Virus record (IMG/VR): IMGVR_UViG_3300042294_004471
Coordinates: 1 to 25,501 of that record
Length of the DNA: 25,501 bases
Strand: one strand, 5' to 3'
Source of the DNA: a virus
The notes under the pieces are model-generated. The model saw only the letters and a program-made list of their open reading frames with translations. It was not told where the DNA came from and searched no databases. Position numbers and translations under genes: made by a program. Positions within the stretch are counted from its first letter, which is position 1. Each line of letters starts with the position of its first letter. This document shows positions 3,084-21,309 of the stretch, in pieces.

Positions 3084-3086
3084 ATA

Positions 3087-6000
3087 TCAAAGATAACAAT
3101 TATTAAAATGATCTAAAAATTCTTGTTCATTTGTGAACTGACTATTTTCAAACAACTCAATAAAATCTTTAAGATTTTCCACTTTAAGTTTTATATTTGG
3201 ATTGTTTCTGTAAGCTTTAAGTTTGTTTCTATTATCTAATGCCGTTTGACTAAACGGATCATCAATATTAATTTCCCACCATTCTGTTAATTCAGAATAT
3301 GTATTTTCTAAAGTATCAGCAAGCAAATCGTTAAAAAATGAATTAGCAGAAATATCAATTGCTCCACTAAGATCAATTAAATCTTCACTGCTAGTCTCAT
3401 CAACTTCAGGTTCTACAAAATTTTGATTATTGAATTCAGCAGATTCACTTACTTTACTAATATTTTCGCCATTAACTTGAATACCTTTTTCAGTAGCTAC
3501 TACACTAGAACCTGCTGAAATTTTTATACCTTTCTCCAAATTAATATTATCTAATGCTAAGTCAATATCAATTGAATCAAACGCTACATCAAAAGGATCT
3601 GAAGAGTTTATACTATTTATAAAGTTTTTTAATTCTTTTGTAGTAGGTCTTTCTCCAAACATAAAACCAATTGGATTTTGTGCGTTTGAACCTTTAATAT
3701 CTACTTGAATGTACTCAGCATAACTACCAATAGCTTTATTGTTAAAGTTGATTAGATTTTCAGCCGGGAATAAGCTTTGTGTTTTTGCAAGAACATAGTA
3801 TCTATACTCAGCTTTGTATTCTGATCCAACATTCTGTCTAACAACCATTGGAAACTCTACCTCAGTATGATAGTCAGAACCTTTTTTAAGATTAATTATA
3901 TTCTTAAAACCTGCTCTGCTTAATGCTTTTTTATTTTTAGCAAAAGTATCTGCCAATTGCTTGGTTAATTTAGAAGCTGCTGGAGTGTTTCTTATTGAAG
4001 AAACAGCATTTGTTTTATCAAGTCTTGAAATACCTGCATATAAATCTACAACTAATCTTGGTACTAAGCTTGACGCATTTACATGAACAGGAGCTCTTAA
4101 GATAGCAGGATCTGCAATTCTTGCAGCTTTCTTTTCTTCTGCAGACTTCTTAGCTTTAGGATCAATGTTATATTGAAGATCTTGTAAAAGTTTTGCTTTC
4201 ACATATTCAAATACAACTGGGCTGTTCTTTTTAAAGTCAGCTAGTTCCGAAGTTGAAATTAAATCTTTTGCAAAGATAACTTGCTTTCCTTCAGCAATCA
4301 TATTTGTTAATTGCTCTACTTGCTCATCAAAGATTGTAATAAAATCTCCTGCTTCAGCATTTGTATAGTAAGAAGACTCTGTTCTATTCATATCCTTTTT
4401 AAAGAACAAGCCAAATGCATTATCCAAACCTCTTACTGAGCTATTACCAACTGTACCTTGTTTTGCAACGTTATCTCCAAATACATAAATGGCTTCAGGA
4501 TTAGATGTTGCAAGTGCTTTGGTAAATACCTTAGGTTCAATAGTAATACCTTTTGTTTCTGGAGCATAGATTGCAGCTCTTACTTTTTTAATTACATAAG
4601 CATTAGGAGCTGAGGTCAAATAACCTTGCATGAAATCAATAACCAAGTCATCCAGCTTCATGCCAAATGTTGACTGGAATACAGTATCATTAGGTCTTTC
4701 CATTGCTGCTTGTACTGTATCAATATGAGATAGATAACTATCAAGAGCAATTGGAGCTACAGATTCAACAATAGATTTGTAACCATACTGCAAACCATCT
4801 TTAACCATCATGTAATGAACAAGAGTCTTTGCATCAGATCTTGTTAAAGGATTTGCGTACAAAGTCATAAAGCCATTTTGGATATCCAGCTTTTGTGAAT
4901 CATTATATCTTAAGAATGTATTTGCTCCCGCTAAATTTAAACCAGTCTTATTACCTTTCAAACTTGCTTTCTCTGTGATGATGAAAGAGTTTAAGAAATA
5001 ATTGTTAGCACCTTCTTCAGTTGCTCTAAGTCTATCTACTACCGCTGTTATATTCTCAACACCCTCTTGATTATAAATTAATCCATTGGTAAGAGTAGCT
5101 ACAGACTGTGAGTTATTAACCAAACCATTTTGCATGTAAGCTTTAATTGTCAAGTAAGACAAGAAGTCTCTAGCAATTTTTGTTTTAGTTTTGTCTCTTA
5201 ACTCATAAGGCAAACTATTTACAGTACTTTGATATACTACTTCATCAGTTACTCTTCTAAATAGGGGACTTGCTGAAAGAACTACTTTAGGTAATAGGAA
5301 ATTAGTAAACTCTTGGAATCTTTCAAGATAACCAGCTTGCCATGTATCACCTTTAAATATAGGTCTAGCATCAATCATAGGTTTATTATTACCTAATGCT
5401 ATAAATTCTTTGTCAGATAGGTTAAGACCTAGGTTTTCTATTGCTTCATTTCTTTTATCAATTGCTTCAAGACCTTGACCTAAACCATTAGTAAGATTTA
5501 TGATATCTCCCATGTATCTTGTAGTATTAGATAACATAGCAGCATTCAAGAACTGTTCTAGAATTGAAATTTCTTCAATGACTTGCATTTTTGTAATCTC
5601 ACCATTTTCTCTAAGCTCAGCCATATCACCTTCAGTAGCAGTTGCTTTAATTAGAGGAGTTTCAATTGCTTCCATCAAAGAGTTTTGAGTAACAGAAGTT
5701 CTCATTTTTCTTTCTTCATTCTCAAGGAATGTTCTTTGTAGTGCACTAATTCTTTCTTGTACAACGGTTTTTACAGATACTTTTTTATCCGCTGAAGCAT
5801 TAGCTTCCATAAAGTAAGCTTGTCTAATAACAGGGTGATTAACCAAAAGAACTGAAGTCTTTACAGGAACACCTAAAGCTGTTAGATTAGCTACAACAGA
5901 AAGAGCATTAATATTAAGACCAAGCTTAGCTAAAAGTCTTTCTTTAGCATTATCCGTTGCTGCAGTAATTAAAGCAGATAAGATATACTGAGTTCTTTGA

Positions 6001-9000
6001 CCTTGACTACCATCTTCATTTAACTCAAATGTATTTCTAAAGTTGCTAAATGTAACTCCTCCAAATTCAATTTGAGGTAATACTTCTTCACCGTTAATTT
6101 TAGTGCTGGCAATTTTTACATCATACTCTTGAAGAAGATTTAAGTAAAGGTTAGGTAATACAACCGCACCAATTGATCTAGAACCTTCTTTGTTGTTAGC
6201 AAACATTCTGAGCTTGCCGTATAAGTTGTCTACATCAATACCTTCTTCTTCAGACAAGGCAGCCCATTCAGGAAGTTCTGTTTTAAGTTCATCCCAAAGA
6301 TCCTTTAAGACTTCCATGTCAGCAGCCTCATATGAAATTGCTACAGAAGTTTTTTGCTTGCCATTTTCATCTAATGCAGGTTTACCTGTATTGACAGTAG
6401 TGATTCTACCGTTCTTATCCAAGAACAAAGGTTTTCTTTCAGTAACATGATCATTACCCATAAGAGCAACTTTGTAATCAAGAATATCATTGTTGATTGC
6501 TGCAGCATATGGCTCATGTCCAAACTTCTTTCTATAGGTAGAGTACTCAGCATAGAAGCGTGGCATACCTAAAACAGATAATGCATTGATAGCTTCTTCA
6601 CTAAATCCTTGAGCTCTTGCACCAACAGGTTGTTCTGGAGTTAATGCATTTGTTGTACCTCTACCATTGTACTTGTATAAAGCTTCACCGTATACTGAAT
6701 CAGTATCTTGTACCTTTTTGTTTACATACTGTACGTAATCTTCAAACTGTTCTTTCTCAGTTTTCTTTTTACCATATTCAAAGAACTCTCCATTCTTTTC
6801 ATAAAACTCTTTGAACTGCATGTAAACCTTGTCAATATCAAAGTCAGCTCCTGATATCTCAATAAGTTCTCTTGCAAACACACCAGAAGAACCATAAGCG
6901 GCAGGCATAAAGTCTACCCACTTAACATTGTAAGTTGAATGGTTATCTTGTGAAGGAATACGTACAGCAAACATTTTACCTACAACATCAGGAATAGATT
7001 TTCCTTTGAGTTGTAACTCTTCCATTACTTCTTTATGATGAGGTGGTAATAACATCTCACCATACTTTTGTCCAGTTGCTTTTCCTTTTGAGTCATACTC
7101 TTTCATGTTATGTCTCAAGCGGTCAATAATAACAACACCGGCACCTTTAGATTTTTTTACTGCATCTTTAAGACCGGCAATGTTTTCATCATTACCAGGA
7201 TAAGAACCTTCATCAATATTAAATGCAATATCAGGCTTATTAGCCATAGCCTCATATTGAGCTTCAGTAATAATTTCATGCTTATCAGGCATTCCATTTT
7301 CATCTACAGAAAGAACTCTTCTGTAAACTCTTACACCATAATCAGATACTAATGATACTGTTGCACCAGGTACCTTTTCATTAAATACACTCTTACTGAA
7401 ATAGCTCATGAATAAGTTCAAGAACTTATCATAGGTAAGAGGATTATTAAGATTGTACTTTTGATTTCCTGATTCATCTAAAGAGAACAGTTCCATTAAG
7501 TGACTAGATGAACCTGTAGACGCAAGACTGGCTTCGGCATACCTCAAGTATGTATAAAGATCTGCAGTAATAGCATTTTCTTTAATACTCTTCTGAAGTT
7601 CATCCATAGCATAGTCTACATCAAAAGAGAATACTAAATTTCTCTTATTGATATAGTTTAAGTTACCTCTATCTCTAGTTGCCTTGTGATAAGCAGCTCT
7701 TACCTCACCTAATGTTAATTTCTCACCATTGATGATTACTTCTGTTGAATCATTTTGTTCTGAAGTAACCAAGGTCTTAACCTGAGTAGGATCTGTTATA
7801 ACAATTTTGTTAGATGGGTTTATTACTTGCAATCCTAAGTAGTTAGCATTAAGAGTAACAGACTGATTTTTTCCTAAAGGAGTTGTTGTTCCAGTAACAC
7901 CATGAATATTAGATACATTCTTTTGCATCATCTTCAAGGCTGATCTTGGAGCAGCTACCGATACAGTATTATTCTCTTGTTCAAATGCTTCAAGCTTAAC
8001 TCTTAAATTATGTAGAGCTACTTTGTTAGGTTTAGGAATAGTATAGTTACCTTCAGAATCTTTCAATGAAGTAAACTGTGGCAATAATGGGAAGGCAGAC
8101 ATCTTAACAAATGTTTTACCATCTGCATAGACAAGCTTTTGAGAGTTGAGCATTTCTTGCCTCTTAGCGTATCCTGTAGATTCTTCTGTCCCAAAAATAT
8201 CCTCAGCACTAATATCCTCACCTCTTTCAATTCTATCAAACAATTCTGCTTGAGCTGGAGTAAGTTTACCAAATCCATATTGGAAATGACGGAATGCTTT
8301 GGTAGTCATCCACAACTGAGCATCCGCATTCTTAACTTCACCAGCATTGTATGTTGCATTAACAATGGGTTCTGTCAATTCAAACAAAGAAATTTCTTGC
8401 AATGGTTTGAAAATACCATACTCTGGTGCAGCTACTGTACTTGCAGCACTGTAGTAAGATGCAGATTGTGCTTTTGCTCTTTTAATTTCATCAACAGCAT
8501 CCTTCAAACTATAAGCACTATCACCTAATAAAATCTGATTGATAGCTGTGGTATTAATATAATCATTAAAGAAGATCTGCTTTAAGTTGTATGCACTATC
8601 TTCAGGAATAATGTTTAGTAATCTACCAGATCTTTGTGCATCTCCAGTTACTGCACCACCTGCTGTCTGAATACCATTTGTTAGGAAGTTTGCTAATCCA
8701 CCTTGTGAACCAACAAGTTCATCTAGTGTAATGTTAAACTCTGCAAATTCTTGGTCCATTCTATTTTGCAAGAATGCTTTCAACTCTGATTCCTTTATAC
8801 CAAGTTTTTGGATAGCTTCAGCAAATGTCAATCCTGCAAACTCTGGAGAACGTGCAGCTTCAGTTAGTTTATTTAAATAACCTTCTACTTCAAACCCACC
8901 AACAAGGCCTGCAATTTGTTCCATTACATCTGCCTCTCCAGCTTCCATCAAATCATACATGTACATAGGTTTCTTACCTTGTAAGAACTTCTGCTCATTG

Positions 9001-12000
9001 ATTGATTCTACATAGAATTTCTTAGTTCCAATACGTACTTCATATTTGAACTGATCATTTTGAACAAGTGAAATAGAACCCTTAAGATCTTCAAAGATTC
9101 TTTCTCTGTTCTCAGGAGTAACTCTTACCAAACCTCTACCAATAATTCTCTTTGGTACATTCTTATCTCCCTCTTTAGTTTTTACAATAGCATCACGGAC
9201 AACACCCGTAGATGTAAAACCAATAAACTGTTCTGCAGCTTTTTGATCATATACAAGTGCAGTCTGATCCCCTTTTTCAATTCTCTCTAACTTGATGTCA
9301 GAAGTTTGAATTGTAACAATACCTTGACGGCTTTCTTTCTTCTGACCTAATGGACTTAAAAGAACACCTGTCTTATGGAAATTGAAAGCTCTAGCTTTAT
9401 TTACACTATCACTTGTTACATTGATAGGAATAATTTCTTCAGTTCCTGTCTCTGCATTTGGAATTGCAAGTGCGTTATACCCAACATGTAACTCTTGAGT
9501 TGCAGTTTCAGGATTAGATTCTTTCTGTATTCTTGCAAATTCTGCAGCAACATTATTTAATATAGCATCAAGAGCTTCTTCTGTTAAAATAGTTTTCCCC
9601 CCTTTTTTATCTACAGCTTTAAATACAGGAAGACTAATCATGTCACCAGTATTTGATGCTTCAAGTACACGTAAAAGTACTGGAGCTAATGCGGCAACCT
9701 CTATAGTTCCATCTTCTTTTGTCCAGGAAATAGTATTAACTTTTCCACTCACAGAATCTACAGCATATGTATAAGAGTTAATCAAGTTAAGAATAAACTC
9801 TCTTGGAGTTGAATCACCATAGGTTGTGCCTGATGAAGGAGTTCTGCCTGAAGTTTCAGACATCAAACCATCTTCATCCATATCTATATTTCCTGTCTTT
9901 GAACCGGCAATTCTTAGGATTCTTAATCTACCTTCTGCAGAAAGCTGTTTGAAAGCTTCACTGTTTAATAAAAAGTTATTTACAAGATACTCATCAGACT
10001 TTTTAAGTTCTTCAATCTTGGAACCATTATTGGCAACATCATTCAATGCAGCTATTTGTTTCAGGTGAAATGAAGGTAATTGGTGAGCATATACCAAGTC
10101 TCCATTTGGATTCTTAAATACAGATGCTCCAACATTCTCATCAAATGCTGCATTACCTAATGCAATTTTTCTAAGTCTATTTCTTGCACCCTCATCAGCA
10201 GTAAATAAATCTTGCTTACCTTCTACAATCAATTTAATTTCTTTGATATCTTTATAGTTCAAAGCCTTTTCATCAGCATTAGCATTTAATAAAGCTTTTT
10301 GATACCTTGTAGGTCTTTCAATATTTTTAGCAACACTGAATTCAATAAACTTAGGACTTAATGAAATACCCAAGTTTTCTTCAAGAATTTTTGTAGTTTC
10401 ATGTGCAAACTCAGAAAGCTTTTGATCATCATATTTCTTAACCGATGTTTTACTAGTTTCTTCATCTTTAACAAATTGCAATCTTTGTAATAGACCTTCA
10501 AAAGTGTCAACAACAAGATTTCTTATTCCCTCATCTGTATTTAATACTTTTGACTTCTGAATATAAGCTTGACCCCATCTGTCAACTTGAGTATTTGCGT
10601 CATCCCTGTTTGCCGCAGTATAAGTATATACTTGGTCACCAGTACTTCTATGTATAAAGAGATAGTCAACACGTGCATTTTCAAAACCTTTCAATACAGC
10701 TTGTAAAAGCAAAGGTCTCTTAACACCTTGTCTTAATTCTTTTTGAGTCAGCGGCTTACCACTTCTGAACTTTTCAATCACTTTTGCAGTATACTGAGGA
10801 AGCTGTCCATTCTCAAGTTGATCTGCCCATTTAATACCTAAGTCAAGGAATAATTTATTTACAACTGCTTCTGTTTGTGGATTATTAATTCCAAAGAAGT
10901 AAAGCTGTTGTAAAATCTGAATAGGATCATTCAAGTTTTTAACAGCCTTTAAGAAACCATTGTAAGCTGTAGCAAAGTCTACAGTAATCATTAATTTCTC
11001 TCCAGTGCCTTCTATATCCTCTCCATTCTCGTCTTTTTCAGCATCAATCAAAAAGTCATTACCAAACTGATCCTTTTCTGAAATAGGAGTTGTTCCAATA
11101 TATTTTCTCAAGAAAGAAGACAAAGAAGAGAATCCACCAATGCTGGTTACATCTTTATCATACTGATCAGTAGTTCTAAGTCTATCTCCTACTTGATCAT
11201 CTGTATCTTCAAGATCTTCTTCAATCTTTCTTGATTTAATTTCATAGTATTTTAATTCATCATAAACAGCTTCCTTAATAAAATCAGAGAACTCAGAGAA
11301 AGCTTTTTCAATATCTCTAAGATTTCTTTTCTGTTCAGGAGTAAGCTCCATAGTTTTATAAGCTTCTCTTCTAGTACTATAAAGAGCTTTGAATCTATTA
11401 AAAGAATCATTAACTGCTTTTTTTATATTAAAATTAGAATTTTTATTTTCTTGCTCAAGCATAATAACTCTTGCAGAAATAGAAGATACTATACTTCTTG
11501 CAAAATTATTATCTAAAGTCCTATATCCAAAAGCACCTGTCTCACTTTCAATCATCTCTACAGGAATAATCTTATTGGCAAGAGTAATACCAGTTGCAAG
11601 ACTATCTGTAAATCTGTTATTGATTGGTGATGCTGATTTAAATTTACCAGAATCAATATCTTTAAATAACTGTTGAAGCTCATTAGGAGTATATCTATTA
11701 AACAAAGATTTAATCCATTCAATGATTCTATTAAAGAAGTTCTTAATAGCTGAATCAGTTTTTGTAGATCTAGGATCTTTCTTAAACTTCTCAAACTCAT
11801 CAGCCATGTATTCTTCATAAAACTCTTTCTCAAGAGCTTTTCTGCTCATTGCTTTATATGAATCTGCAGAGTTTCTAAACTTACCAAGCTCTTCTTCAAA
11901 CTTATCACCAAGCTTTCTTTTTACTTCTGCTTCAGCAATCTTGTAAAGTTTGTCCTGTTGTGCATTAGAAAGTAAAGATCTAAACACACCATGGAATGCT

Positions 12001-15000
12001 TCGTGATATTTGTATGGAGATTTAGCACCGGTGTACAATGTACCTTTCACAGTCATTCCACCAGCAATTTGATTCATTGATAAAACAAAAGCACCAACAC
12101 GTACACCATTAGTAACAAGGTTATCTCTAAGATTAGAAATATCCTCAATGCTAATAAAGTCTGGCAAATTATCATTAGCCCAAATTACAAACTCATCAAT
12201 GTCAGCAACTTCTTGTTCACTAAGTGTTTTACTTACAATTTTGTTAGCAAGCAATTTTCTTTGAATTTCTCTATTCCGCGCAATTAACTTTTGTCTTTCC
12301 GCATTATCTTCCATTAATTCACTTGCCTTAACTATATCTGGTTCAGCAGTATCAATCTCTGTTTCAATTTCTTTAATTCTTGCTAAGTTCTGTTGCAACT
12401 CTTTTTTAAGAGGTGTTGTAACTTCTTGAGTAGTTACAGCAATTGGTGCAGGTTTAGCTTCTAAAGCAGCTAGTTCTGCGTCATGTTTAGCAATAATATC
12501 AAAAGCTTGTTTTGGTGCATTAAGTTTTTCAGCAATTGCATAACCAACGGGATTAGCATTTTGCAACCAACTGACATAAGTACCTTTTGATAAGTCTTCA
12601 GTAAACTTAGGTATGCCTAATACTTCTGCAAAGTAATCAAGAAGCTTTTGAGTTACAGGCGTTCTAGTATTAGCTTGTGTATCTGGAAAATCTTCTCTTT
12701 TATATTTAGTTTCTATATCAGCTTTAGCATCTGTAGGAGTAGTAGATGAGTCAATAATTTTTTCACTTATTTTGGTTAATGAACCTTTAGATAAACTTGT
12801 AAAGTTTTCTACAGGAAGGTTGAGTTGATCATCTTTAATACGTTCTGGTGGAAAAGGAATTTTATCTCCTTTAATTTTTTCTTGTATTATTTTAGAACCA
12901 TCTGCCATAGTACGTACTGTAACAACGTGGGTTTCTCCAGTATCTTCATAAACACCTTCATAAGTTTCTATTTTAACTGTAATGTCTTTAGCATCTGTAG
13001 AAACAGGAGCTGTTAAAGTTTCCTCAATAACTACTTTATTTTCTTGTTGAATAACAGCCGGCGTTGCAGCAAATAATAAAACTTCTTGAATAACATTTGA
13101 ATCTGCAGTTAATCTAAGTTTGTAATTAGTTCTTACATTTTCATTAAGAGTTGTTACAGTATTATCAAGAATTGTATCAATGTTTGCATCTTCAACAAAA
13201 CTTGCTCTTACATTATTAATAGAAAGTTTTAACTTAGTCCATTCAGGAATTTCTACAGAAGAATCTTTTTTCTTCTTTTCTTTAAATTTCTCAGCAGCTT
13301 TATCAATACCTAACTTTTGAAGATTATCTAAAAGTCTTTCAATGATATCTGGTTTCTCAGCACCTTGATAATCAAGAGTACCTTGTCTACCTTCATCCAA
13401 ATATGAACTACCTACAACAGATTTACCTTTCTTATCATAAAGTTCAGCTCTAAATGTACCATCAGCGTTAACATTAATCTCAACAGTGTATCCTTCAATA
13501 TTAGTTGTAATATAAAGTTTCTTGTTAAAGGCCTGATTAAACTCTACGTTAAAGTTTTTGTCTTTAATCTTTTTTGTTTCAACAGAACCTTCACCATCTA
13601 AGTTTTCATTGATAGTTCTAACACCTTCTTCAACAAGTTCACGGCTTAAGTTAAAAATTTCTTCTTTTTCTAGTTGTCTAGTTTTTAAAGGAGCACCTGT
13701 ATAAATGCCATTTGGTGTTTTAATTATAGCAAAATATCTTTGTTCTTTTTGAAAGCTTTCAAATAAACCCGGTTGTGATGCAGCCAAATCTTGTTTAAGC
13801 TTTTTAATAAATGCTTCTCTTTCATCAATATCTTCAATGTCAGTTAATATACGTGTTGATCTAGTGCCATTTTTAAGTGTGTCATTAATCATAACAACTT
13901 TAACACCATCAACAGTATTATACTTAAGTTCTTTTACTGGCTTTGGATTGCTTTTTAAATCAACACTTGATCCAAGATTAAAACCAAACTCTGTAAATTC
14001 AGAAATGGGAATAACCGCAGCATCTTTACCTTCCATTTTATCTGCAACTTGTTCAAAAAAAGCTTGTTGAATTGCATAGTTGTTTATAATAGTATTTACA
14101 GCATTAGCTTGCTGTTTTGGATAGATTGTAAACGTATTCTCAATAATCTCTTTAGTAATATTAAGCGGGTTTATAACCTCATTTTTATCATTTACAAATT
14201 GAATAGATTGATTAGGAATAAAAGCAAAAATATTTTCTTGAGTTGGTTTTAAACCTGCATTTATAATAATTGAATTAATTTCATCAAATGATTCAAGACT
14301 GATACCTATAGAAAATGGTTCATTTAATTTATTAATATACGGATTTGGATTTTTATCTCCGATTTTAAATTTTCCTTTAGGTTTATTACTTTCAGAATTT
14401 CTTTTAATTATTAATTTAAGATTTTTTCTTTGTTCTGGTGTTAAATTTTCTAAAATTAATTGCAATCTTTTATTTGCTTCTTCAATTAATTCAAATTGCG
14501 AACCGCTTCTATTTACATAAGGATAAACACTAACAGCATCATCTAATAAAAGTCTTGATGTATTTTCTGTAACTTCATTAAAATTAAGAGTTTCTTTTTT
14601 ATATTTGTTTTTAAATTCACTTTCTGTGAGTTTTTTAGCTAATTTATTTTTTTCTTGTTTTGATTGTCCTTCTTTAATGTCTTCAAAAGCTAATAAAAAT
14701 AATTTTTTACCTTTTGCTACTTCCGCAGGTGTGCCAAGTACTAAATATTTTTTATTTTTAGAATCAATAAGTACAGTTCCATAGGAAAGCTCCATTCCTC
14801 CAAATGTAAATAAATCTGTATTTGCATTACTTTCATCTAATTTTTTAGCAGCTGATTTAGCTTTATTTATATCAGTGAATGCGAGATATGAGCCTGCGTC
14901 ATCTTGAGTAATAAGATTACCTTTTTTATCTGTAATTGTATATAACGGTACAAAATTTCCTTCATCATCAGATGTTATTTTTTCAACAATTTGAACATTA

Positions 15001-18000
15001 TTAAATGTGTCATTTACTATTCTACCTGATGATTCTGGGATATTTTCTTCATCAATTTTTACATTAATAAAATCTGAAATTTTTGTTTCTGTATCAAAAA
15101 ATATTTTTTCAATAGTAATATTCTCTTTTTGACTTTCTAACCAATTATCAAATCCAATATCATTATTAAAATTATATTCTTTATTTGTTTCTGGAAGAGT
15201 TTGATACCATAATGCCTTTAATTTTTTATAAGCACTAATATAATTTAATGCTTCTTTTTGTTTGCGCCAATCATTTATTGAAATAGGAAGTTTGTTTAAA
15301 TTATTTTGTTTTAAAACATATTTATTATATTTATTATTAAGAACTTCTTTAATTTTGGGATTATTTTCTTCATTTGTAATTTGTACTGGCGGCGTATCTT
15401 CGACAATATCTAAAATATCATCTAAAAAATCATCAACTTGTTTAACTGGCGTTTCTTTTGTTTCAGTTGTTTTTAAATTAGACTCTTTATAAATATTTAT
15501 TAAAGTTAAAATATTTACAGGCATTTCATTTATCAAACCATTTTCATCATAAAAACTTTTTAAAACATCTACATTATCTGTATTTATGAACTCTTGTATT
15601 TCAGTTGGTTCAATTATTATTCCTAAATCATGTATTTTATTTAATAATTGATTTTGTTCTGTTTTAGTTACATGATTTTTAATTGAATTTTTAAAAATTT
15701 CTAATCTATTTTTAAAAGCATTTTTATATACAATTTTAGTTCGCTCTGTTATTTCTTTAACTCTATTTGGATTATTTAAATATTCTATAGCTTTAGCATA
15801 AGAACTTGCTCTTGCAGATAATGTATAATAATCTAAAATTTGTTCAAAAGCTTCCTGTATTTTATTATCAAATACAAATTCATCTTGAGATAAATTTTTT
15901 ATATATGATGTAAAAGCTTTATTTTTTTGATCAATATCTTCTGATTCAAAAGCGCTTGTTAAATTTATTAAATCATTTAATTTTTGTTTTTTTGCTTTTT
16001 TTAATTCTGGATCATCTATTAAATTTATCTCAGATTCAAGCATTTTTAATTCTTTCAATAATGTTTTAGAATTAAGTAAAACTGTTATATCACTAGCTGT
16101 TATTTTAGATGATATTGGATTAGTAGATAAATTTTGAAAAATTGAATTTACACGCTCTAAAGATCTATTAAATGAATCTTTAGTAAACATTCTTAAATAA
16201 CGAGCATGCTCAAATGCAAAAAAGTTTATTTGTTCAGTATGATAATCTGCTGTTCCGGGTTTATATATATTTGGATTAAATGGATTTACATATTCATTTT
16301 TATCATTTACAAATTGATTTTCTAATAAATCAATATTATTAATCATATCTGTAAATCTACCCCTCATTTTTCCAGATTGTATTTCCTCTTTAAATGTAGG
16401 AAATGCTTCTAATAATTCTTGATCTGACAATTTAGATAAATCTTCAAATTGTTCTCTAAAAAATGAAACAGAATTATTATTTAATACTTTATATATACTT
16501 GAAAATTTAGAAAAATCTTTAGCGTCAATAAAATCTAAAACTGAATCTTCATTTATAGAATTAAACATATCTTGCGATGCGTTTTCTTGAGCCGATAAAT
16601 CAAATTTAATAGGATTAAAAATAGATTCTAATGGATTAGTTAAATTTTGTTCATAAGCATTATTTAATTCATCAACAAGTGAAGAAACAAGGTTATTTTT
16701 TTGTTCTTTAAATTGTTCAAATTCTTCTTTATTTGTAATTTGATTATAAATATTAGGGACTGATTGAAATAACATTTTTTGAGGAAGTTGTGCTAAACCA
16801 CCCATTAAAAATCCCGTCATAAATGTTTCAAATCCTTGAGAATTTAATTGAGATGCAATTCCAGATGTAATTGATGCATTTAATAAATCATAATTTTCAG
16901 AAGAAGGATTTTCTAATACAGCATTAAAATAATCTTCAACACCTTTAGATATAGCTTCTTGAGAAACTTCTTGAATACCTTCTGCAAAATTAGCCGCAAA
17001 ATATCTCAAAGAAGCATGAGCACCACTTTTAATACTACCTTTTACTCCTGCATTTTTTAATCTTTTTAAATATGCACTAAATCCTTCACCAGCATCAGAA
17101 AATGGTCGTGAAATTATTTTTCCAGTTTTATCTTTAAAAGATGTTTTTAAAACCCTACCAGCTATTCCTGATGGTACTTCTTTTAAAGCTCGACTTAAAC
17201 TTTTATTATACGAACCAAAAGCGTTTCCTAAAACAAGTTGATTTGAAAAATAAATTAACGGCGCATTTAAAATTGTTGTTCTAAAAGATGCTCGTTCTGC
17301 TTGTTGAATAATTTCATTTATATGATTATCATCAAGGTTTTCTCCATATAAATTTGTTTTTATTGCAAAACCATTTGCTATTTGATTATTATATGTAAGC
17401 CCGCCTTCCATTTTTGATTCAGCAAGCGCATAATTTAAAGAACGTAAATCTCTATAAAAACCACCAAATGTTTTAGAAGCTTTTGCTAAATTTGTTAATC
17501 CTTGATATGCATTTTGTGTTGAATTTAAAGTCTTAATAGCCTTCACTGTTTCTGGTAAAAATAAACCAGCTACTTTAGCACCATTTAATCCTCGCCAAAA
17601 ATTTTTTGCAGCATCTGCTGTTTTAATATTTTGAAGCATGGATCTTGTAAATTTTGCCATTCTTCCTACCGCAAATGAATCAGCGATAGTATCTCCTGCT
17701 TTATATAAATTTTGAAAAAATTTTGGAGCAGTTATTGTTGCACTTGATGGCGCAATGCTTGTAAGACCAGCTATTGCTAATTCTTCAGCAGCTATACTTC
17801 CAATAATACCTGTAGTATATCCAAATTGTAATAAAAGATTATTTGTAAAACTTCCTATACCACCTCTTGTTGAATTTCCAATTTTAACTGCATTTTCAAA
17901 TTCAGAAGCAGATTCTAAATCAGGAGATAAATAGTTTCCACTAAATAAATCACCTATAGCTCGATAACTTGAAACAAATCCTGTTTTAGTAAGTTTTCCA

Positions 18001-18449
18001 AATTGATTAAACATTCTAGAATAATCATCCCAAATTGTAGAATTTTCATTATAATATTCTTCATTATTAGCATATGGATGCCATTTTAATTTTGAAAATT
18101 TTGGATGAGCATAATATCTGTCAAAATTAGTTTCTTTTACACTAAAAAGTAATGGCTGTAAAACTTTTGGATTTCCACTAGGAATAGAACCAATTTGGGA
18201 TAATTCTTTTTTAAGTATGTCATCTTCAGAAAGTTTTTCTGGATTTTTTAAAACATTAAAACTAGGAACAGCGGGAATAAATTTATTTATAGAATTAGCA
18301 TGTTCTTTTAATAAATTATCATATTCCGGACTTACAATTTCTGCAGTACTAGATAAATTTAATGGATTAAATAATGAATCATCAAAAGTAAAAGATTCAA
18401 GATTATTTGATAAATTTTCTGTAATACTTGAAAAATTATTATCTAGCAT
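3087..18449 (-). CDS. Giant virion RNA polymerase fusion protein (5,120 aa) with embedded metallopeptidase
   Basis: One uninterrupted frame closed by TGA. Order of regions: 1-620, with hydrophobic or amphipathic stretches at about 202-234 and 534-557 and the motif EGIQEVSQEAISKG near 490-503; 620-1000, helical; 1000-2000, mixed and unassigned; 2010-2070, likely coiled coil; zincin metallopeptidase with H2149-E-A-F-H2153 and E2212/E2213; polymerase region from about 2290; candidate first barrel near K3449 (VKMSAFPL); second double-psi barrel from RIPSQDNHS (R3830) to the metal-binding loop D3869-F-D-I-D3873; VFGDN domain (4656-4660); acidic C-terminus. The DFDID loop preceded by an RxP segment matches the two-barrel polymerase shown in crAss-like phage phi14:2 (gp66), which is packaged in the virion and transcribes early genes after injection. 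In crAss001 this locus is several genes; here it is one. Cleavage by the internal zincin is possible but unproven. The start overlaps the upstream gene by 11 nt. The catalytic part is GC-richer than the N-terminal third. Confidence 0.93.
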   Translation of the reverse strand: MLDNNFSSITENLSNNLESFTFDDSLFNPLNLSSTAEIVSPEYDNLLKEHANSINKFIPAVPSFNVLKNPEKLSEDDILKKELSQIGSIPSGNPKVLQPLLFSVKETNFDRYYAHPKFSKLKWHPYANNEEYYNENSTIWDDYSRMFNQFGKLTKTGFVSSYRAIGDLFSGNYLSPDLESASEFENAVKIGNSTRGGIGSFTNNLLLQFGYTTGIIGSIAAEELAIAGLTSIAPSSATITAPKFFQNLYKAGDTIADSFAVGRMAKFTRSMLQNIKTADAAKNFWRGLNGAKVAGLFLPETVKAIKTLNSTQNAYQGLTNLAKASKTFGGFYRDLRSLNYALAESKMEGGLTYNNQIANGFAIKTNLYGENLDDNHINEIIQQAERASFRTTILNAPLIYFSNQLVLGNAFGSYNKSLSRALKEVPSGIAGRVLKTSFKDKTGKIISRPFSDAGEGFSAYLKRLKNAGVKGSIKSGAHASLRYFAANFAEGIQEVSQEAISKGVEDYFNAVLENPSSENYDLLNASITSGIASQLNSQGFETFMTGFLMGGLAQLPQKMLFQSVPNIYNQITNKEEFEQFKEQKNNLVSSLVDELNNAYEQNLTNPLESIFNPIKFDLSAQENASQDMFNSINEDSVLDFIDAKDFSKFSSIYKVLNNNSVSFFREQFEDLSKLSDQELLEAFPTFKEEIQSGKMRGRFTDMINNIDLLENQFVNDKNEYVNPFNPNIYKPGTADYHTEQINFFAFEHARYLRMFTKDSFNRSLERVNSIFQNLSTNPISSKITASDITVLLNSKTLLKELKMLESEINLIDDPELKKAKKQKLNDLINLTSAFESEDIDQKNKAFTSYIKNLSQDEFVFDNKIQEAFEQILDYYTLSARASSYAKAIEYLNNPNRVKEITERTKIVYKNAFKNRLEIFKNSIKNHVTKTEQNQLLNKIHDLGIIIEPTEIQEFINTDNVDVLKSFYDENGLINEMPVNILTLINIYKESNLKTTETKETPVKQVDDFLDDILDIVEDTPPVQITNEENNPKIKEVLNNKYNKYVLKQNNLNKLPISINDWRKQKEALNYISAYKKLKALWYQTLPETNKEYNFNNDIGFDNWLESQKENITIEKIFFDTETKISDFINVKIDEENIPESSGRIVNDTFNNVQIVEKITSDDEGNFVPLYTITDKKGNLITQDDAGSYLAFTDINKAKSAAKKLDESNANTDLFTFGGMELSYGTVLIDSKNKKYLVLGTPAEVAKGKKLFLLAFEDIKEGQSKQEKNKLAKKLTESEFKNKYKKETLNFNEVTENTSRLLLDDAVSVYPYVNRSGSQFELIEEANKRLQLILENLTPEQRKNLKLIIKRNSESNKPKGKFKIGDKNPNPYINKLNEPFSIGISLESFDEINSIIINAGLKPTQENIFAFIPNQSIQFVNDKNEVINPLNITKEIIENTFTIYPKQQANAVNTIINNYAIQQAFFEQVADKMEGKDAAVIPISEFTEFGFNLGSSVDLKSNPKPVKELKYNTVDGVKVVMINDTLKNGTRSTRILTDIEDIDEREAFIKKLKQDLAASQPGLFESFQKEQRYFAIIKTPNGIYTGAPLKTRQLEKEEIFNLSRELVEEGVRTINENLDGEGSVETKKIKDKNFNVEFNQAFNKKLYITTNIEGYTVEINVNADGTFRAELYDKKGKSVVGSSYLDEGRQGTLDYQGAEKPDIIERLLDNLQKLGIDKAAEKFKEKKKKDSSVEIPEWTKLKLSINNVRASFVEDANIDTILDNTVTTLNENVRTNYKLRLTADSNVIQEVLLFAATPAVIQQENKVVIEETLTAPVSTDAKDITVKIETYEGVYEDTGETHVVTVRTMADGSKIIQEKIKGDKIPFPPERIKDDQLNLPVENFTSLSKGSLTKISEKIIDSSTTPTDAKADIETKYKREDFPDTQANTRTPVTQKLLDYFAEVLGIPKFTEDLSKGTYVSWLQNANPVGYAIAEKLNAPKQAFDIIAKHDAELAALEAKPAPIAVTTQEVTTPLKKELQQNLARIKEIETEIDTAEPDIVKASELMEDNAERQKLIARNREIQRKLLANKIVSKTLSEQEVADIDEFVIWANDNLPDFISIEDISNLRDNLVTNGVRVGAFVLSMNQIAGGMTVKGTLYTGAKSPYKYHEAFHGVFRSLLSNAQQDKLYKIAEAEVKRKLGDKFEEELGKFRNSADSYKAMSRKALEKEFYEEYMADEFEKFKKDPRSTKTDSAIKNFFNRIIEWIKSLFNRYTPNELQQLFKDIDSGKFKSASPINNRFTDSLATGITLANKIIPVEMIESETGAFGYRTLDNNFARSIVSSISARVIMLEQENKNSNFNIKKAVNDSFNRFKALYSTRREAYKTMELTPEQKRNLRDIEKAFSEFSDFIKEAVYDELKYYEIKSRKIEEDLEDTDDQVGDRLRTTDQYDKDVTSIGGFSSLSSFLRKYIGTTPISEKDQFGNDFLIDAEKDENGEDIEGTGEKLMITVDFATAYNGFLKAVKNLNDPIQILQQLYFFGINNPQTEAVVNKLFLDLGIKWADQLENGQLPQYTAKVIEKFRSGKPLTQKELRQGVKRPLLLQAVLKGFENARVDYLFIHRSTGDQVYTYTAANRDDANTQVDRWGQAYIQKSKVLNTDEGIRNLVVDTFEGLLQRLQFVKDEETSKTSVKKYDDQKLSEFAHETTKILEENLGISLSPKFIEFSVAKNIERPTRYQKALLNANADEKALNYKDIKEIKLIVEGKQDLFTADEGARNRLRKIALGNAAFDENVGASVFKNPNGDLVYAHQLPSFHLKQIAALNDVANNGSKIEELKKSDEYLVNNFLLNSEAFKQLSAEGRLRILRIAGSKTGNIDMDEDGLMSETSGRTPSSGTTYGDSTPREFILNLINSYTYAVDSVSGKVNTISWTKEDGTIEVAALAPVLLRVLEASNTGDMISLPVFKAVDKKGGKTILTEEALDAILNNVAAEFARIQKESNPETATQELHVGYNALAIPNAETGTEEIIPINVTSDSVNKARAFNFHKTGVLLSPLGQKKESRQGIVTIQTSDIKLERIEKGDQTALVYDQKAAEQFIGFTSTGVVRDAIVKTKEGDKNVPKRIIGRGLVRVTPENRERIFEDLKGSISLVQNDQFKYEVRIGTKKFYVESINEQKFLQGKKPMYMYDLMEAGEADVMEQIAGLVGGFEVEGYLNKLTEAARSPEFAGLTFAEAIQKLGIKESELKAFLQNRMDQEFAEFNITLDELVGSQGGLANFLTNGIQTAGGAVTGDAQRSGRLLNIIPEDSAYNLKQIFFNDYINTTAINQILLGDSAYSLKDAVDEIKRAKAQSASYYSAASTVAAPEYGIFKPLQEISLFELTEPIVNATYNAGEVKNADAQLWMTTKAFRHFQYGFGKLTPAQAELFDRIERGEDISAEDIFGTEESTGYAKRQEMLNSQKLVYADGKTFVKMSAFPLLPQFTSLKDSEGNYTIPKPNKVALHNLRVKLEAFEQENNTVSVAAPRSALKMMQKNVSNIHGVTGTTTPLGKNQSVTLNANYLGLQVINPSNKIVITDPTQVKTLVTSEQNDSTEVIINGEKLTLGEVRAAYHKATRDRGNLNYINKRNLVFSFDVDYAMDELQKSIKENAITADLYTYLRYAEASLASTGSSSHLMELFSLDESGNQKYNLNNPLTYDKFLNLFMSYFSKSVFNEKVPGATVSLVSDYGVRVYRRVLSVDENGMPDKHEIITEAQYEAMANKPDIAFNIDEGSYPGNDENIAGLKDAVKKSKGAGVVIIDRLRHNMKEYDSKGKATGQKYGEMLLPPHHKEVMEELQLKGKSIPDVVGKMFAVRIPSQDNHSTYNVKWVDFMPAAYGSSGVFARELIEISGADFDIDKVYMQFKEFYEKNGEFFEYGKKKTEKEQFEDYVQYVNKKVQDTDSVYGEALYKYNGRGTTNALTPEQPVGARAQGFSEEAINALSVLGMPRFYAEYSTYRKKFGHEPYAAAINNDILDYKVALMGNDHVTERKPLFLDKNGRITTVNTGKPALDENGKQKTSVAISYEAADMEVLKDLWDELKTELPEWAALSEEEGIDVDNLYGKLRMFANNKEGSRSIGAVVLPNLYLNLLQEYDVKIASTKINGEEVLPQIEFGGVTFSNFRNTFELNEDGSQGQRTQYILSALITAATDNAKERLLAKLGLNINALSVVANLTALGVPVKTSVLLVNHPVIRQAYFMEANASADKKVSVKTVVQERISALQRTFLENEERKMRTSVTQNSLMEAIETPLIKATATEGDMAELRENGEITKMQVIEEISILEQFLNAAMLSNTTRYMGDIINLTNGLGQGLEAIDKRNEAIENLGLNLSDKEFIALGNNKPMIDARPIFKGDTWQAGYLERFQEFTNFLLPKVVLSASPLFRRVTDEVVYQSTVNSLPYELRDKTKTKIARDFLSYLTIKAYMQNGLVNNSQSVATLTNGLIYNQEGVENITAVVDRLRATEEGANNYFLNSFIITEKASLKGNKTGLNLAGANTFLRYNDSQKLDIQNGFMTLYANPLTRSDAKTLVHYMMVKDGLQYGYKSIVESVAPIALDSYLSHIDTVQAAMERPNDTVFQSTFGMKLDDLVIDFMQGYLTSAPNAYVIKKVRAAIYAPETKGITIEPKVFTKALATSNPEAIYVFGDNVAKQGTVGNSSVRGLDNAFGLFFKKDMNRTESSYYTNAEAGDFITIFDEQVEQLTNMIAEGKQVIFAKDLISTSELADFKKNSPVVFEYVKAKLLQDLQYNIDPKAKKSAEEKKAARIADPAILRAPVHVNASSLVPRLVVDLYAGISRLDKTNAVSSIRNTPAASKLTKQLADTFAKNKKALSRAGFKNIINLKKGSDYHTEVEFPMVVRQNVGSEYKAEYRYYVLAKTQSLFPAENLINFNNKAIGSYAEYIQVDIKGSNAQNPIGFMFGERPTTKELKNFINSINSSDPFDVAFDSIDIDLALDNINLEKGIKISAGSSVVATEKGIQVNGENISKVSESAEFNNQNFVEPEVDETSSEDLIDLSGAIDISANSFFNDLLADTLENTYSELTEWWEINIDDPFSQTALDNRNKLKAYRNNPNIKLKVENLKDFIELFENSQFTNEQEFLDHFNNCYL
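4216..4550 (-). other. VFGDN (macro-like) domain near the C-terminus of the giant protein
   Basis: Within the giant protein, IYVFGDNVAKQGTVGNSS (from about residue 4654) runs into VRGLDNAFGLFFKKDM and a YYTN segment. This is the pattern (VFGDN, glycine-rich turn, R-N-A-x-G) of a small phage and bacterial domain of unknown function, DUF7831 or similar by memory. It recalls macro-type nucleotide or ADP-ribose binding folds. The boundaries are approximate. No catalytic claim can be made from sequence alone. Confidence 0.55.
6831..6962 (-). other. RNA polymerase active-site barrel: RxP segment to DFDID loop
   Basis: Codes residues 3830-3873 of the giant protein: RIPSQDNHS at the upstream end, then VFARELIEISGADFDIDK. 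It mirrors the arrangement in beta-prime subunits, where RQP is followed about 40 residues later by NADFDGD. The three aspartates D3869, D3871 and D3873 would hold the catalytic Mg2+. The isoleucine in place of glycine (DFDID) is characteristic of the crAss-like enzyme. Confidence 0.92.
11811..12005 (-). other. Zincin metallopeptidase active site (HEAFH ... EEYMADEF)
   Basis: Codes residues 2149-2213 of the giant protein. H2149 and H2153 are the first two zinc ligands, E2150 the general base, and E2212 or E2213 in EEYMADEF, about 60 residues on, the likely third ligand, giving a gluzincin-like pattern. The following segment FFNRIIEWIKSLFNRY is shared in form with the 400-aa downstream protein. 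Zincin domains are known in polyvalent proteins and in large crAss-like proteins. The substrate is unknown. Confidence 0.85.
14179..14202 (-). repeat. 24-nt direct repeat, copy B (codes QFVNDKNE)
   Basis: Identical over 24 nt to 16294-16317 and in the same reading frame. It codes residues around 1417-1423 of the giant protein; the context is QFVNDKNEVINPLN. A shorter related string occurs in the 956-aa gene near 18995-19010 (FTNDKNETLN). Confidence 0.7.
16294..16317 (-). repeat. 24-nt direct repeat, copy A (codes QFVNDKNE)
   Basis: Partner of 14179-14202, 2,115 nt away (a multiple of three). It codes residues around 712-718 of the giant protein, context QFVNDKNEYVNPFN. Protein similarity extends a few residues beyond the identical DNA (NEYVNPFN against NEVINPLN). 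Confidence 0.7.
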
Positions 18450-21309
18450 ATTGTTGTCGGTTAGTATTTTCTTTTTGTTCTTGATTTATTGCGTTATTTT
18501 CTAATATTTTTATAGCCTGTAATACATAAGTGTCAATCATATTTTGATTTTCATTTTTATTTCTTAATAAATCACTTAAATTTATTTTATTTTTAAAACG
18601 ATCTTCAAATATACCATTTTTATATTCATAAGGTGTAGTATAAAGTATATAATCACCACTTGAATTTTTTTGAACACTTATTTTTCCACCATTTGGTATT
18701 TCTTTTGTATAAACACTATTATAATTAACTTCAGAAACAACAGTTGAATAATTAAGATTTGGATTATTACGTTTAGGATTTATATCTTGATCTTGTGGAA
18801 AAGATACAACTATAGATTTTATAGGATTATCTTTTGTAAATTCATTGTCAAAAATAATTTTATATCCTGCTTTTTTACCATTTAAATTAAACTCCGGCAA
18901 ATATTGCAATTGCATTCCTGCATTTTTATCTTCACTTTGTAACCTTATAAAATATTGATTTAAAATTGCTTTAGCATCATCTGAATTTAATGTTTCATTT
19001 TTATCATTAGTAAAAGTTACTTGATTTTGAAGTTGTTTTATCAAACTAAAAAAATCATCAGATATATTATCAGGATTTATATAAGTTTCATAAACAGGGT
19101 TATACAATAAACTACCATCATTTGTTGGTGTTAAACCTTCCATCATTATTTTAGGATTAACATATTTATATGGAGATACTGTAGTTTTTTCTTCTGCTGT
19201 TGCTTCTTGTTGAAAATTTAATGTAAAATTTATTAATTCTTTTTGTGCATTATATGCATTTTTAAGTTGATTAGTAAGACTAGAAGTAATAGCGTATTTT
19301 GAAGAAGATTTTGGCATAGGTTTTCCAGTAATTGTTTTTTCTGGCGTAAATGTTTTTTCAAAATCTGTAAGAAGAGAACGATTTTTTTCATCAAATTCTA
19401 CTACCGAAGAAGAATCAAAAATTTGTTTTCCAAATTTGTTTTCATATTCTGCTTTAAACTCTTCAAAACTTTTCATTCTAGAACCATCTGCAACAAATAT
19501 TGAAGGTATCCCTTTATCTAAAGCTTGCTTTATTTTTTTTCCATTATTTGTTTTTAATGCTAAATTAAAATTATAAAAATAATTTTTATTTACATCATCG
19601 TACATTCTATTGTAACTATTTATTTTTCCATCCAAATTAAACATTTCACTAGTAAGTCTACTTATAGTATTTTCATTTAAATTTTTTGGATTTTTACTTT
19701 TAATATCTTCAAAACTATCTTTATAATAATTATATATAGGAGCAAGTTTTTTTATACTTAAATTATTTAATTTTGATTTAAGATCAGTTATATTTCCACT
19801 AAACTTTAATTGCGGTAAATTATATATTAAATCATCACCATTTATTTCTTCTGCTAATTGTAAAGTTAAATCAACAAGATTATTTCTTAAATCTACTCCT
19901 GTATTAATTACTTCAGTATTAATTTCATCAACTGAAATTGTTTTAGTAGTTGGTTCAGCATAAAAATCACTACTAAATAATTGATTTAAATTATTTTTAA
20001 GTTTATTTTTTGAATCATTTTCCGCTTTAAATTTTTCTAAATTTAAATCATATAAATATTCTTGTTCTTTTAAAGCTAAATCATATTTATATTCAGCTTG
20101 CATTTCTTGCATTTTAAAACTATGATCTAATCTTGCTTCAAATTCTTTAAGTTTAAATTCATCAACTTTTAATTTCGTATAAGTGTCTTTATTAGAATAA
20201 CTTAAAGCAGCGTTATATAAATCATTATTTAAATTAGAATTTATTAAAAGATTTGATGCTTTATTTAAAGCTGATTCATTACTTTCTTGTTCTAAAATAT
20301 TATTATTAGCCATGGCTTCTCGCCTTTTTTCTAAATGCGTTTTGATTGCTTCTAATCTAAATTCTTTATCATTTAACATTCTTTCAAATTCACTGCCTGG
20401 AACAACACCTTTTTTACTTTCTTTTTTAAAAAGATTTAACTCTCTTTCTAATTCTTTTATTTCAATTTCATCCTTTACATTAGATTCAGCTAATTTTAAA
20501 TTAATTTCTTGAACTTTATCAATAGCCCATTGTCTTTGTCCTTCATCAAGAGATTTAAATTTTCCTTCTTCTAATCCTTTTTGTGCGTAATTTCTAGCTT
20601 TTACATAAGCATCTATTGAGTAAGCTTGTATAATTGAAGCATCATCTAATAATACATTTCTTACCATTTCATATGCGGGTGTAGTTATTAAATTTCCATT
20701 TTTTTGTTCAACAATAAAATTTCCACTAGGAAATTCCATTATTTTTTGCAACCCTGATTTATTTAAAATATCCAACGCTTTTTCATATAAATTTGGATTA
20801 GGTACATATTTTGCCATAGGCATTTTTATAGCTTTATCTGAATCCGCATTTATAAAATCTTCCATTTTATAATTTAAATATTGAACGCCTTCATTCCAAT
20901 ATAATTTTCTTTTTTCAGGATCTGTAGAATTTAATAAAGAATTTGCATATTCAATGTTTTTTTTATAATCTTTAGTATGCAACATATCAGATACAATCAA
21001 ATTATCTTCAAAAAATGGAGTAAATAATTGTTTAGCTTCAAAAACATTTTCTTCTAAAGAAAAATCTAATCCTGATATTTTTTCAAGTTGCTTACTTAAA
21101 TTATTAGTATATTGATCTCTCTTTAATTTTGTATCATTTCTAGATAAATCAGCATATACTATTTTACTATACAAATCATTTAATCTGTTATAATTTGTAT
21201 TATACTTGTTTGTTCTTGCATCTAAAACATTAGATAAAAATTTATAATCTGGAACAAACGGTTGCCAGTTTGGAAAATAACTTTGTTTTCCGGGAATATA
21301 TATTGCCAT
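18439..21309 (-). CDS. crAss-like virion structural or internal cargo protein (956 aa)
   Basis: Begins MAIYIPGKQSYFP and continues with WQPFVPDYKFLSNVL and NDLYSKIVYADLSRND, an N-terminal pattern I recall as strongly conserved in crAss-like phages directly before the polymerase gene. Residues 85-125 (FEAKQLFTPFFEDNLIVSDM) continue that conserved block. A charged, heptad-like stretch at about 380-435 (LKEFEARLDHSFKMQEMQ, ALKEQEYLYDLNLEKF) is a probable coiled coil. The C-terminal half is Asn/Lys-rich and unassigned. No enzyme motif, signal peptide or clear membrane span is seen. Its position immediately upstream of, and 11-nt overlap with, the injected polymerase gene fits a packaged cargo protein or scaffold for it; in crAss001 cargo proteins are coded near the polymerase locus. 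It starts 3 nt after the 676-aa stop. Structural class is fairly sure, exact role is not. Confidence 0.75.
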   Translation of the reverse strand: MAIYIPGKQSYFPNWQPFVPDYKFLSNVLDARTNKYNTNYNRLNDLYSKIVYADLSRNDTKLKRDQYTNNLSKQLEKISGLDFSLEENVFEAKQLFTPFFEDNLIVSDMLHTKDYKKNIEYANSLLNSTDPEKRKLYWNEGVQYLNYKMEDFINADSDKAIKMPMAKYVPNPNLYEKALDILNKSGLQKIMEFPSGNFIVEQKNGNLITTPAYEMVRNVLLDDASIIQAYSIDAYVKARNYAQKGLEEGKFKSLDEGQRQWAIDKVQEINLKLAESNVKDEIEIKELERELNLFKKESKKGVVPGSEFERMLNDKEFRLEAIKTHLEKRREAMANNNILEQESNESALNKASNLLINSNLNNDLYNAALSYSNKDTYTKLKVDEFKLKEFEARLDHSFKMQEMQAEYKYDLALKEQEYLYDLNLEKFKAENDSKNKLKNNLNQLFSSDFYAEPTTKTISVDEINTEVINTGVDLRNNLVDLTLQLAEEINGDDLIYNLPQLKFSGNITDLKSKLNNLSIKKLAPIYNYYKDSFEDIKSKNPKNLNENTISRLTSEMFNLDGKINSYNRMYDDVNKNYFYNFNLALKTNNGKKIKQALDKGIPSIFVADGSRMKSFEEFKAEYENKFGKQIFDSSSVVEFDEKNRSLLTDFEKTFTPEKTITGKPMPKSSSKYAITSSLTNQLKNAYNAQKELINFTLNFQQEATAEEKTTVSPYKYVNPKIMMEGLTPTNDGSLLYNPVYETYINPDNISDDFFSLIKQLQNQVTFTNDKNETLNSDDAKAILNQYFIRLQSEDKNAGMQLQYLPEFNLNGKKAGYKIIFDNEFTKDNPIKSIVVSFPQDQDINPKRNNPNLNYSTVVSEVNYNSVYTKEIPNGGKISVQKNSSGDYILYTTPYEYKNGIFEDRFKNKINLSDLLRNKNENQNMIDTYVLQAIKILENNAINQEQKENTNRQQYAR

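Follow-up and report, generated by a model that had tools for sequence, protein, structure and literature searches.

The window, the whole stretch of DNA analyzed here, is a 25,501-bp IMG/VR fragment that holds the end of a gene cassette only. Most of it is taken up by one giant gene on the minus strand. The same-strand neighbors overlap this gene or lie a few bases from it (an overlap upstream, 3 bases downstream), and the gene run therefore reads as one operon. The features are given below; residue numbers are those of the giant protein unless another protein is named.

Positions 23340 to 24506, minus strand: 388-aa protein, upstream in this gene run and free of cysteine.
Positions 21313 to 23343, minus strand: 676-aa protein, upstream in this gene run and free of cysteine.
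Positions 18439 to 21309, minus strand: upstream 956-aa protein, no cysteine, overlapping the start of the giant gene by 11 bp.
Positions 3087 to 18449, minus strand: the giant gene, a single frame of 5,120 codons with an ATG start.
Positions 13170 to 18449, minus strand: N-terminal module (residues ~1-1760), helical, a virion or ejection protein related to crAss001 gp47.
Positions 12210 to 13169, minus strand: hypervariable linker (residues 1761-2080), 34-47% identity with ~150 gapped residues.
Positions 11646 to 12044, minus strand: zincin-type metallopeptidase (residues ~2136-2268), with HEAFH at 2149-2153 and EE at 2212-2213.
Positions 4560 to 10952, minus strand: two-barrel RNA polymerase (RNAP) catalytic region (residues ~2500-4630), a span inferred from alignment to gp66.
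Positions 6831 to 6845, minus strand: catalytic DFDID (residues 3869-3873, equal to gp66 D1361-D1365), invariant in 41 rows.
Positions 4194 to 4532, minus strand: DUF7831 (residues 4640-4752; E=8.8e-19), an optional C-terminal accessory domain.
Positions 3096 to 3098, minus strand: codon of C5118, the sole cysteine in the giant protein, third from the C-terminus (..HFNNCYL).
Positions 3075 to 3077, minus strand: codon of the N-terminal Cys3 of the next protein (MACYNRN..), facing C5118.
Positions 1881 to 3083, minus strand: first 400 aa of the downstream gp49/g065-type RNAP-associated protein, 60% identical to the 1,909-aa protein of relatives over 386 aa.
Positions 1887 to 1889, minus strand: codon of Cys399 (..EKKCS), at the C-terminal end of the split first half.
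Positions 1222 to 1890, minus strand: GIY-YIG homing endonuclease in the break (PF01541 1.1e-8, PHROG 1.5e-15).
Positions 3 to 1232, minus strand: second half of the split gene, at least 410 aa and cut by the contig end, with a new ~370-aa head (MSCKIIYK) followed by downstream-protein homology.
Positions 102 to 2079, minus strand: ~1.98-kb insertion relative to the related assembly G001, splitting the downstream gene (blastn: window 2080 = G001 36335, window 101 = G001 36358).

The giant gene encodes a product of ~575 kDa. An earlier note on this DNA had described a complete single 15.4-kb ORF of 5,120 residues, and that span is exact, though the gene is on the minus strand; the plus strand at 3087..18449 is stop-rich. 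The chance of 5,120 open codons at 31% GC is ~10^-180. Four other assemblies contain the frame without interruption: G001 and G004, which are nearly identical to each other (5,139 aa each), G002 (5,112 aa), and G003 (5,156 aa). A further 50 IMG/VR contigs come from other metagenomes and are 44-61% identical in the catalytic domain. A DFDID-bearing open frame of 4,232-6,253 aa, measured stop to stop, is present in 47 of them. Two of the other three have one frame break each, at different places, and one ends at the contig edge. HEAFH and DFDID share one frame in 48/48 relatives, and purifying selection is observed across all segments of the giant.

Fusion is the rule in this large clade, and 5,120 aa is below the clade maximum. 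In L053 / G012, the frame reaches up to 6,253 aa, with large inserts between the zincin and DFDID that include a DUF7831-like motif. The literature treats RNAP genes reaching ~6,000 aa as a hallmark of crAss phages (PMC10136315), and fusions of virion RNAPs (vRNAPs) to large proteins have already been described (PMC10770324). Fusion and size themselves are thus known, and the giant fused vRNAP of the window is one more of its type rather than an exceptional case. The earlier note's description of the fusion as complete calls for a qualification: the RNAP-associated protein (gp49/g065 type) comes from a separate next gene, split here by the homing-endonuclease insertion.

The giant protein is composed of a gp47-like virion protein, a zincin peptidase, an RNAP of the gp66/gp50 type, and an optional DUF7831 tail. 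Residues 392-906 of the N-terminal module match crAss001 gp47 374-830 (HHalign, probability 96%, E 1e-9). By profile, the module also matches a protein of 1,552 aa that stands alone in Leptolyngbya phage Lbo-JY46 (E 2e-18). No RNAP of the gp66/gp50 type is detectable in Lbo-JY46 by a search that finds 4/4 known crAss phages. Since the module is present there without a detectable RNAP, it is a separable virion protein and not a polymerase part. Lbo-JY46 (L128) is a cyanophage; its major capsid protein is the closest annotated one (28%), and its large downstream protein begins MSNC.

The AlphaFold2 model of residues 1-1190 is mostly helical and weak (pLDDT 65, pTM 0.37). Its top viral matches include structural proteins of phi4:1 and phi14:2, at low TM-scores that give a hint only; its PDB matches were discarded as meaningless. 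The N-terminal region had been proposed to be membrane-like, a reading that hydropathy does not support. The best 19-residue window scores 1.41, and windows of this kind are more numerous in shuffled N-termini (mean 2.5). The region is instead helical and gp47-related.

Most of the chain beyond the linker is about 80-90% identical among relatives, in contrast to the 34-47% of the linker itself. The protease that had been predicted in the chain is the zincin, and its ligand residues, HEAFH and EE, are invariant in 52/52 sequences. This region matches crAss001 gp47 2150-2293, and the peptidase appears intact from its residues. The predicted extra C-terminal domain is DUF7831. It is found in 12/48 tails, and NADAR occupies the same position in one relative, which makes the C-terminal slot an exchangeable accessory slot. 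PHROGs and Pfam searches of the giant returned nothing above the cut-off except DUF7831.

A phmmer search of the RNAP part against PDB sequences gave no match, and a structure model was therefore required. The AlphaFold2 model of residues 3284-4469 (pLDDT 81.7, pTM 0.85) was compared with the PDB using Foldseek. The first match is 6VR4, the phi14:2 gp66 (E=1.6e-25, TM 0.60 of the query), and the next is QDE-1 (4e-3). The fold is of the gp66/QDE-1 type, not the T7-like single-subunit type. A profile built from 41 relatives matches gp66 853-1004 and 1317-1838, crAss001 gp50 1393-2043, and p-crAss gp44. A genome-wide profile search gives E 1e-17 to 1e-26 in 4/4 known crAss phages. The earlier note's RNA polymerase core is borne out by these matches; it had made the likeness to gp66 a point on which its reading would stand or fall, and gp66 ranks first. 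The near relative G003 has the crAss genome context (portal, TerL, MCP, and a cassette near tail/cargo genes). Sequence and model together indicate that the giant is a virion RNA polymerase of a crAss-like phage, of the gp66/gp50 type, and it would be injected.

In L040 (cr116_1) and L041 (bajarodcaudo virus 1), the DFD of the catalytic motif is itself the point at which the RNAP gene is interrupted. An endonuclease-like ORF separates the RNAP parts, as expected of an intron. The Spirosoma isolates S. terrae (L135, NZ_JAAFZH010000004.1) and S. oryzae (L132, NZ_PVTE01000009.1) encode crAss-like RNAP ORFs of 3,599 and 3,367 aa, respectively. TerL and portal genes are located ~50 kb from the RNAP ORF on the same long contig, and these are apparently integrated crAss-like proviruses.

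Phage phi14:2 shares with the giant a two-barrel single-chain RNAP with DFDID (gp66, PDB 6VR4). Its gene order, g067-g066-g065, is that of N-terminal module, RNAP, and RNAP-associated protein. Cys is at the end of the g067 protein; g066 starts with MAC and finishes with ECK, and g065 starts with MSC. These are three separate genes, whereas in the giant the first two are one chain. The phage crAss001 has the zincin region, RNAP, and associated subunit in gp47, gp50, and gp49, with Cys at the facing ends. The gp47 protein ends ..RCNS, gp50 begins MSKRC.. and ends ..ICGANTLYEL, and gp49 begins MAKKC... They are separate genes, in agreement with the earlier description of this locus as split. Because gp47 is encoded on the other strand, the order of genes does not always give the order of the chain.

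The Suoliviridae phage cr4_1 encodes gp26 (4,491 aa), which unites zincin, RNAP, and a long N-terminal part in a single CDS and is accompanied by a separate downstream protein. Unlike the giant, it is shorter and TAG-recoded (in-frame TAG codons), and its N-terminal part is weakly alignable. In a catalytic-region tree with long branches, cr4_1 is placed beside the unfused phi14:2 and apart from the window's clade (41 rows). This tree weakly suggests that the gp47-RNAP fusion may have more than one origin. The p-crAssphage gp45 and gp44 also include a giant RNAP fusion (4,070 aa), but there the RNAP is fused to a gp49-type part and the zincin protein gp45 is separate.

More distant systems are similar in part. 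P23-45 gp96 (5,002 aa, PMC10770324) is an injected giant chain with a two-barrel vRNAP and a metallopeptidase. Its RNAP is at the N-terminus of a tape-measure protein and is without a gp66-like clamp; the RNAP of the giant, in contrast, is in the C-terminal half. The N4 vRNAP (3,500 aa) is also a giant ejected RNAP, with MPTase domains in its family (PMC5512222) and a beads-on-a-string model (PMC12633501). It differs in being a T7-type RNAP with no partner RNAP chain and 0 Cys in 3,500 aa; the co-ejected gp51 and gp52 have zero cysteines as well. Polyvalent proteins (Iyer 2017) unite several unrelated domains, among them a zincin MPTase, in one injected chain. The giant carries a zincin, an RNAP, and DUF7831 (NADAR in a relative) and may be of this kind.

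The position of C5118 recurs throughout the clade. The 42 nonredundant relatives whose C-terminus is complete (193,660 aa) contain 45 cysteines in all; 3 are internal and 42 are located 2-5 residues from the C-terminus, one in each relative (42/42). Other ORFs of the same phages contain 1.16% Cys, with Cys at residues 2-6 in 0/94 and in the last five residues in 4/94. In a second, smaller control drawn from ORFs of the fetched loci, 6/42 have Cys within the last ten residues and 7/42 at residues 2-7. The next protein opens MAC, MAKC, MATC, or similar in 53/53 relatives (internal ATG allowed in two). Among the gp49-type downstream proteins, 65/87 contain one Cys in all.

The pattern was spotted post hoc in the window's clade and then tested on later-fetched contigs of the alpha and beta groups. 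Fusion class was assigned by zincin homology; motif position misfiled six beta-type ORFs with N-terminal inserts. Counted over all 127 catalytic ORFs, which are related sequences and not independent events, the C-terminal Cys is present in 94/98 ORFs with a separate gp49-type protein and in 0/24 when that protein is fused on (Fisher 1e-21). The downstream protein has an N-terminal Cys in 84/88 cases and the upstream gp47-type protein a C-terminal Cys in 23/23. At the N-terminus of the catalytic ORF, Cys is found in 43/45 free ORFs and in 0/20 that are fused to the N-terminal module. Five more ORFs with an N-terminal Cys carry their own zincin and have no N-terminal module. The outer ends differ: Cys is present at 0/87 gp49-type C-termini and at 1/5 gp47-type N-termini, the latter scorable in five cases only.

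Out of sample, in the alpha and beta groups, the counts are 23/23 for the upstream C-terminal Cys, 34/37 for free catalytic C-termini, 0/24 for fused ones, and 26/29 for the downstream N-terminal Cys. The exceptions are L153, L171, L283, and L134 at the C-terminus and L171 and L212 at the N-terminus. The C-terminal Cys of crAss001 gp50 is 9 residues from the end. Alpha-group proteins contain 6-27 other Cys yet keep those at the ends, so the pattern is not depletion alone. Nearly throughout the cassette (gp47 type, catalytic, gp49 type), Cys marks the free ends that face a partner and not the outer ends. In the window's clade, ends lost by fusion leave no Cys behind. No paper on the terminal cysteines of these proteins was found in the open-access literature, and the pattern is apparently new.

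The split downstream gene of the window follows the same pattern. Its 400-aa first part has cysteines at residues 3 and 399 only, that is, at both ends, and the sole Cys of the second half is residue 3 in the 410 residues visible. The GIY-YIG endonuclease, presumably not cargo, has three internal cysteines (67, 72, 153). The split gene is thus a third Cys-flanked joint, with the same facing pair at the new ends and none elsewhere. Among the fetched loci, the new head of the second half is matched only distantly (about 30% identity across 218-248 aa); it may be an enzyme module brought in from elsewhere.

The earlier note had asked how such a chain is packaged and threaded through the tail. The question is apt, and the terminal cysteines offer a testable answer. 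Facing cysteines would form a disulfide in the virion, making the cargo one end-to-end thread; in the window, C5118 would be joined to Cys3 of the next protein in the released virion. The thread would be drawn N to C through the tail, partly unfolded. Reduction in the host cytoplasm would undo the joints, the zincin may also cut, and the RNAP would then transcribe early phage genes. In the window's clade, a peptide bond made by gene fusion would stand in place of the gp47-RNAP joint while the C5118-Cys3 joint remains, and the insertion in the downstream gene would leave a further Cys-flanked joint. The scarcity of cysteines fits a chain that must avoid wrong bonds while unfolded. From its sequence, the giant is probably an injected crAss vRNAP in a cargo whose proteins are disulfide-joined head to tail, with fusion replacing a joint.

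Phage assembly takes place in the reducing cytoplasm, and the disulfide would therefore have to form late. Published work on crAss001 gives the setting for such a thread. The proteins gp47, gp49, and gp50 are present in virions by mass spectrometry and are not resolved by cryo-EM of the virion (PMC10172136). Tail constrictions below 50 A require partial unfolding of the cargo, and ejection of the cargo protein gp45 was modelled N to C (PMC10172136). For phi14:2, the vRNAP is reported to transcribe early genes (PMC10136315). Native chemical ligation via the N-terminal Cys was considered and rejected by reasoning, as the Cys is at residue 2-7 and not always directly after Met.

The giant could alternatively be a polyprotein. 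Its own zincin would cut between residues ~1761 and 2080, giving an ejection protein and an RNAP, and the terminal Cys would be unrelated. In keeping with such a cut, the zincin is intact in 52/52 sequences, the linker where the modules meet is hypervariable, other crAss families encode the parts as separate genes, and autoprocessing has been proposed for N4-like vRNAPs (PMC5512222). This account leaves the cysteine pattern unexplained, and as a replacement for the disulfide thread it is doubtful. Zincin cleavage is, however, compatible with the thread as an additional step.

It is less probable that the giant is an ordinary crAss vRNAP whose terminal Cys join like ends, through homotypic disulfides or an inter-copy metal site, or tether it to the virion. 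Like ends could meet in the capsid, which may house about six copies of each RNAP protein together (PMC10172136), and one thiol per facing end is enough for a homodimer. A homotypic role, however, would not lead one to expect matched facing ends or a Cys pair where the downstream gene is split. Cys is present on both facing ends, is absent from the outer ends of gp49-type proteins and from fused C-termini, and is lost with fusion in the clade. This makes the reading an unlikely one. Chance, or a by-product of general Cys avoidance in ejected proteins, is close to refuted: ejected proteins are indeed generally Cys-poor, as in N4 and in the four upstream proteins of the window, but avoidance predicts zero Cys and not one at the same end in 42/42, and the alpha-group proteins keep their end cysteines among many internal ones.

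An assembly artefact that joined separate genes has next to no probability, because the same single frame is present in the four near relatives and in 47/50 distant contigs from other metagenomes, which rules out a chimera. The contig is nevertheless mosaic, as synonymous divergence from G001 falls sharply at residue ~1440. At fourfold sites, residues 1-1440 diverge by 0.46-0.59 and those after by 0.11-0.20, the linker excepted; the G001-G003 comparison is without such a step. In the same part of the gene, further along the giant, GC at third positions climbs from ~0.07 to ~0.2. Natural recombination accounts for the mosaic, with a breakpoint at window ~14130. By these sequence measures, the polymerase half of the gene has been exchanged between phages, and the exchange began within the N-terminal module. 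Although fused in one chain, the modules can be separated in evolution.

CrAss-like phages are among the most abundant human gut viruses. Their huge RNAPs and partner proteins have to be stored, ordered, and passed through tail constrictions of <5 nm. There is an even chance that the early-transcription proteins of Crassvirales as a whole form one covalently continuous thread, held by single terminal-Cys disulfides, with fusions in various lineages replacing joints. If gp47, gp50, and gp49 are one disulfide-linked chain, this would explain the differing fusion combinations across families and would give annotators a simple rule to locate true gene ends. The cysteine pattern makes the giant more interesting than its size does and is directly testable on cultured phages. 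Such a thread, if real, would represent a new means of keeping a multi-protein cargo in order and injecting it through a phage tail.
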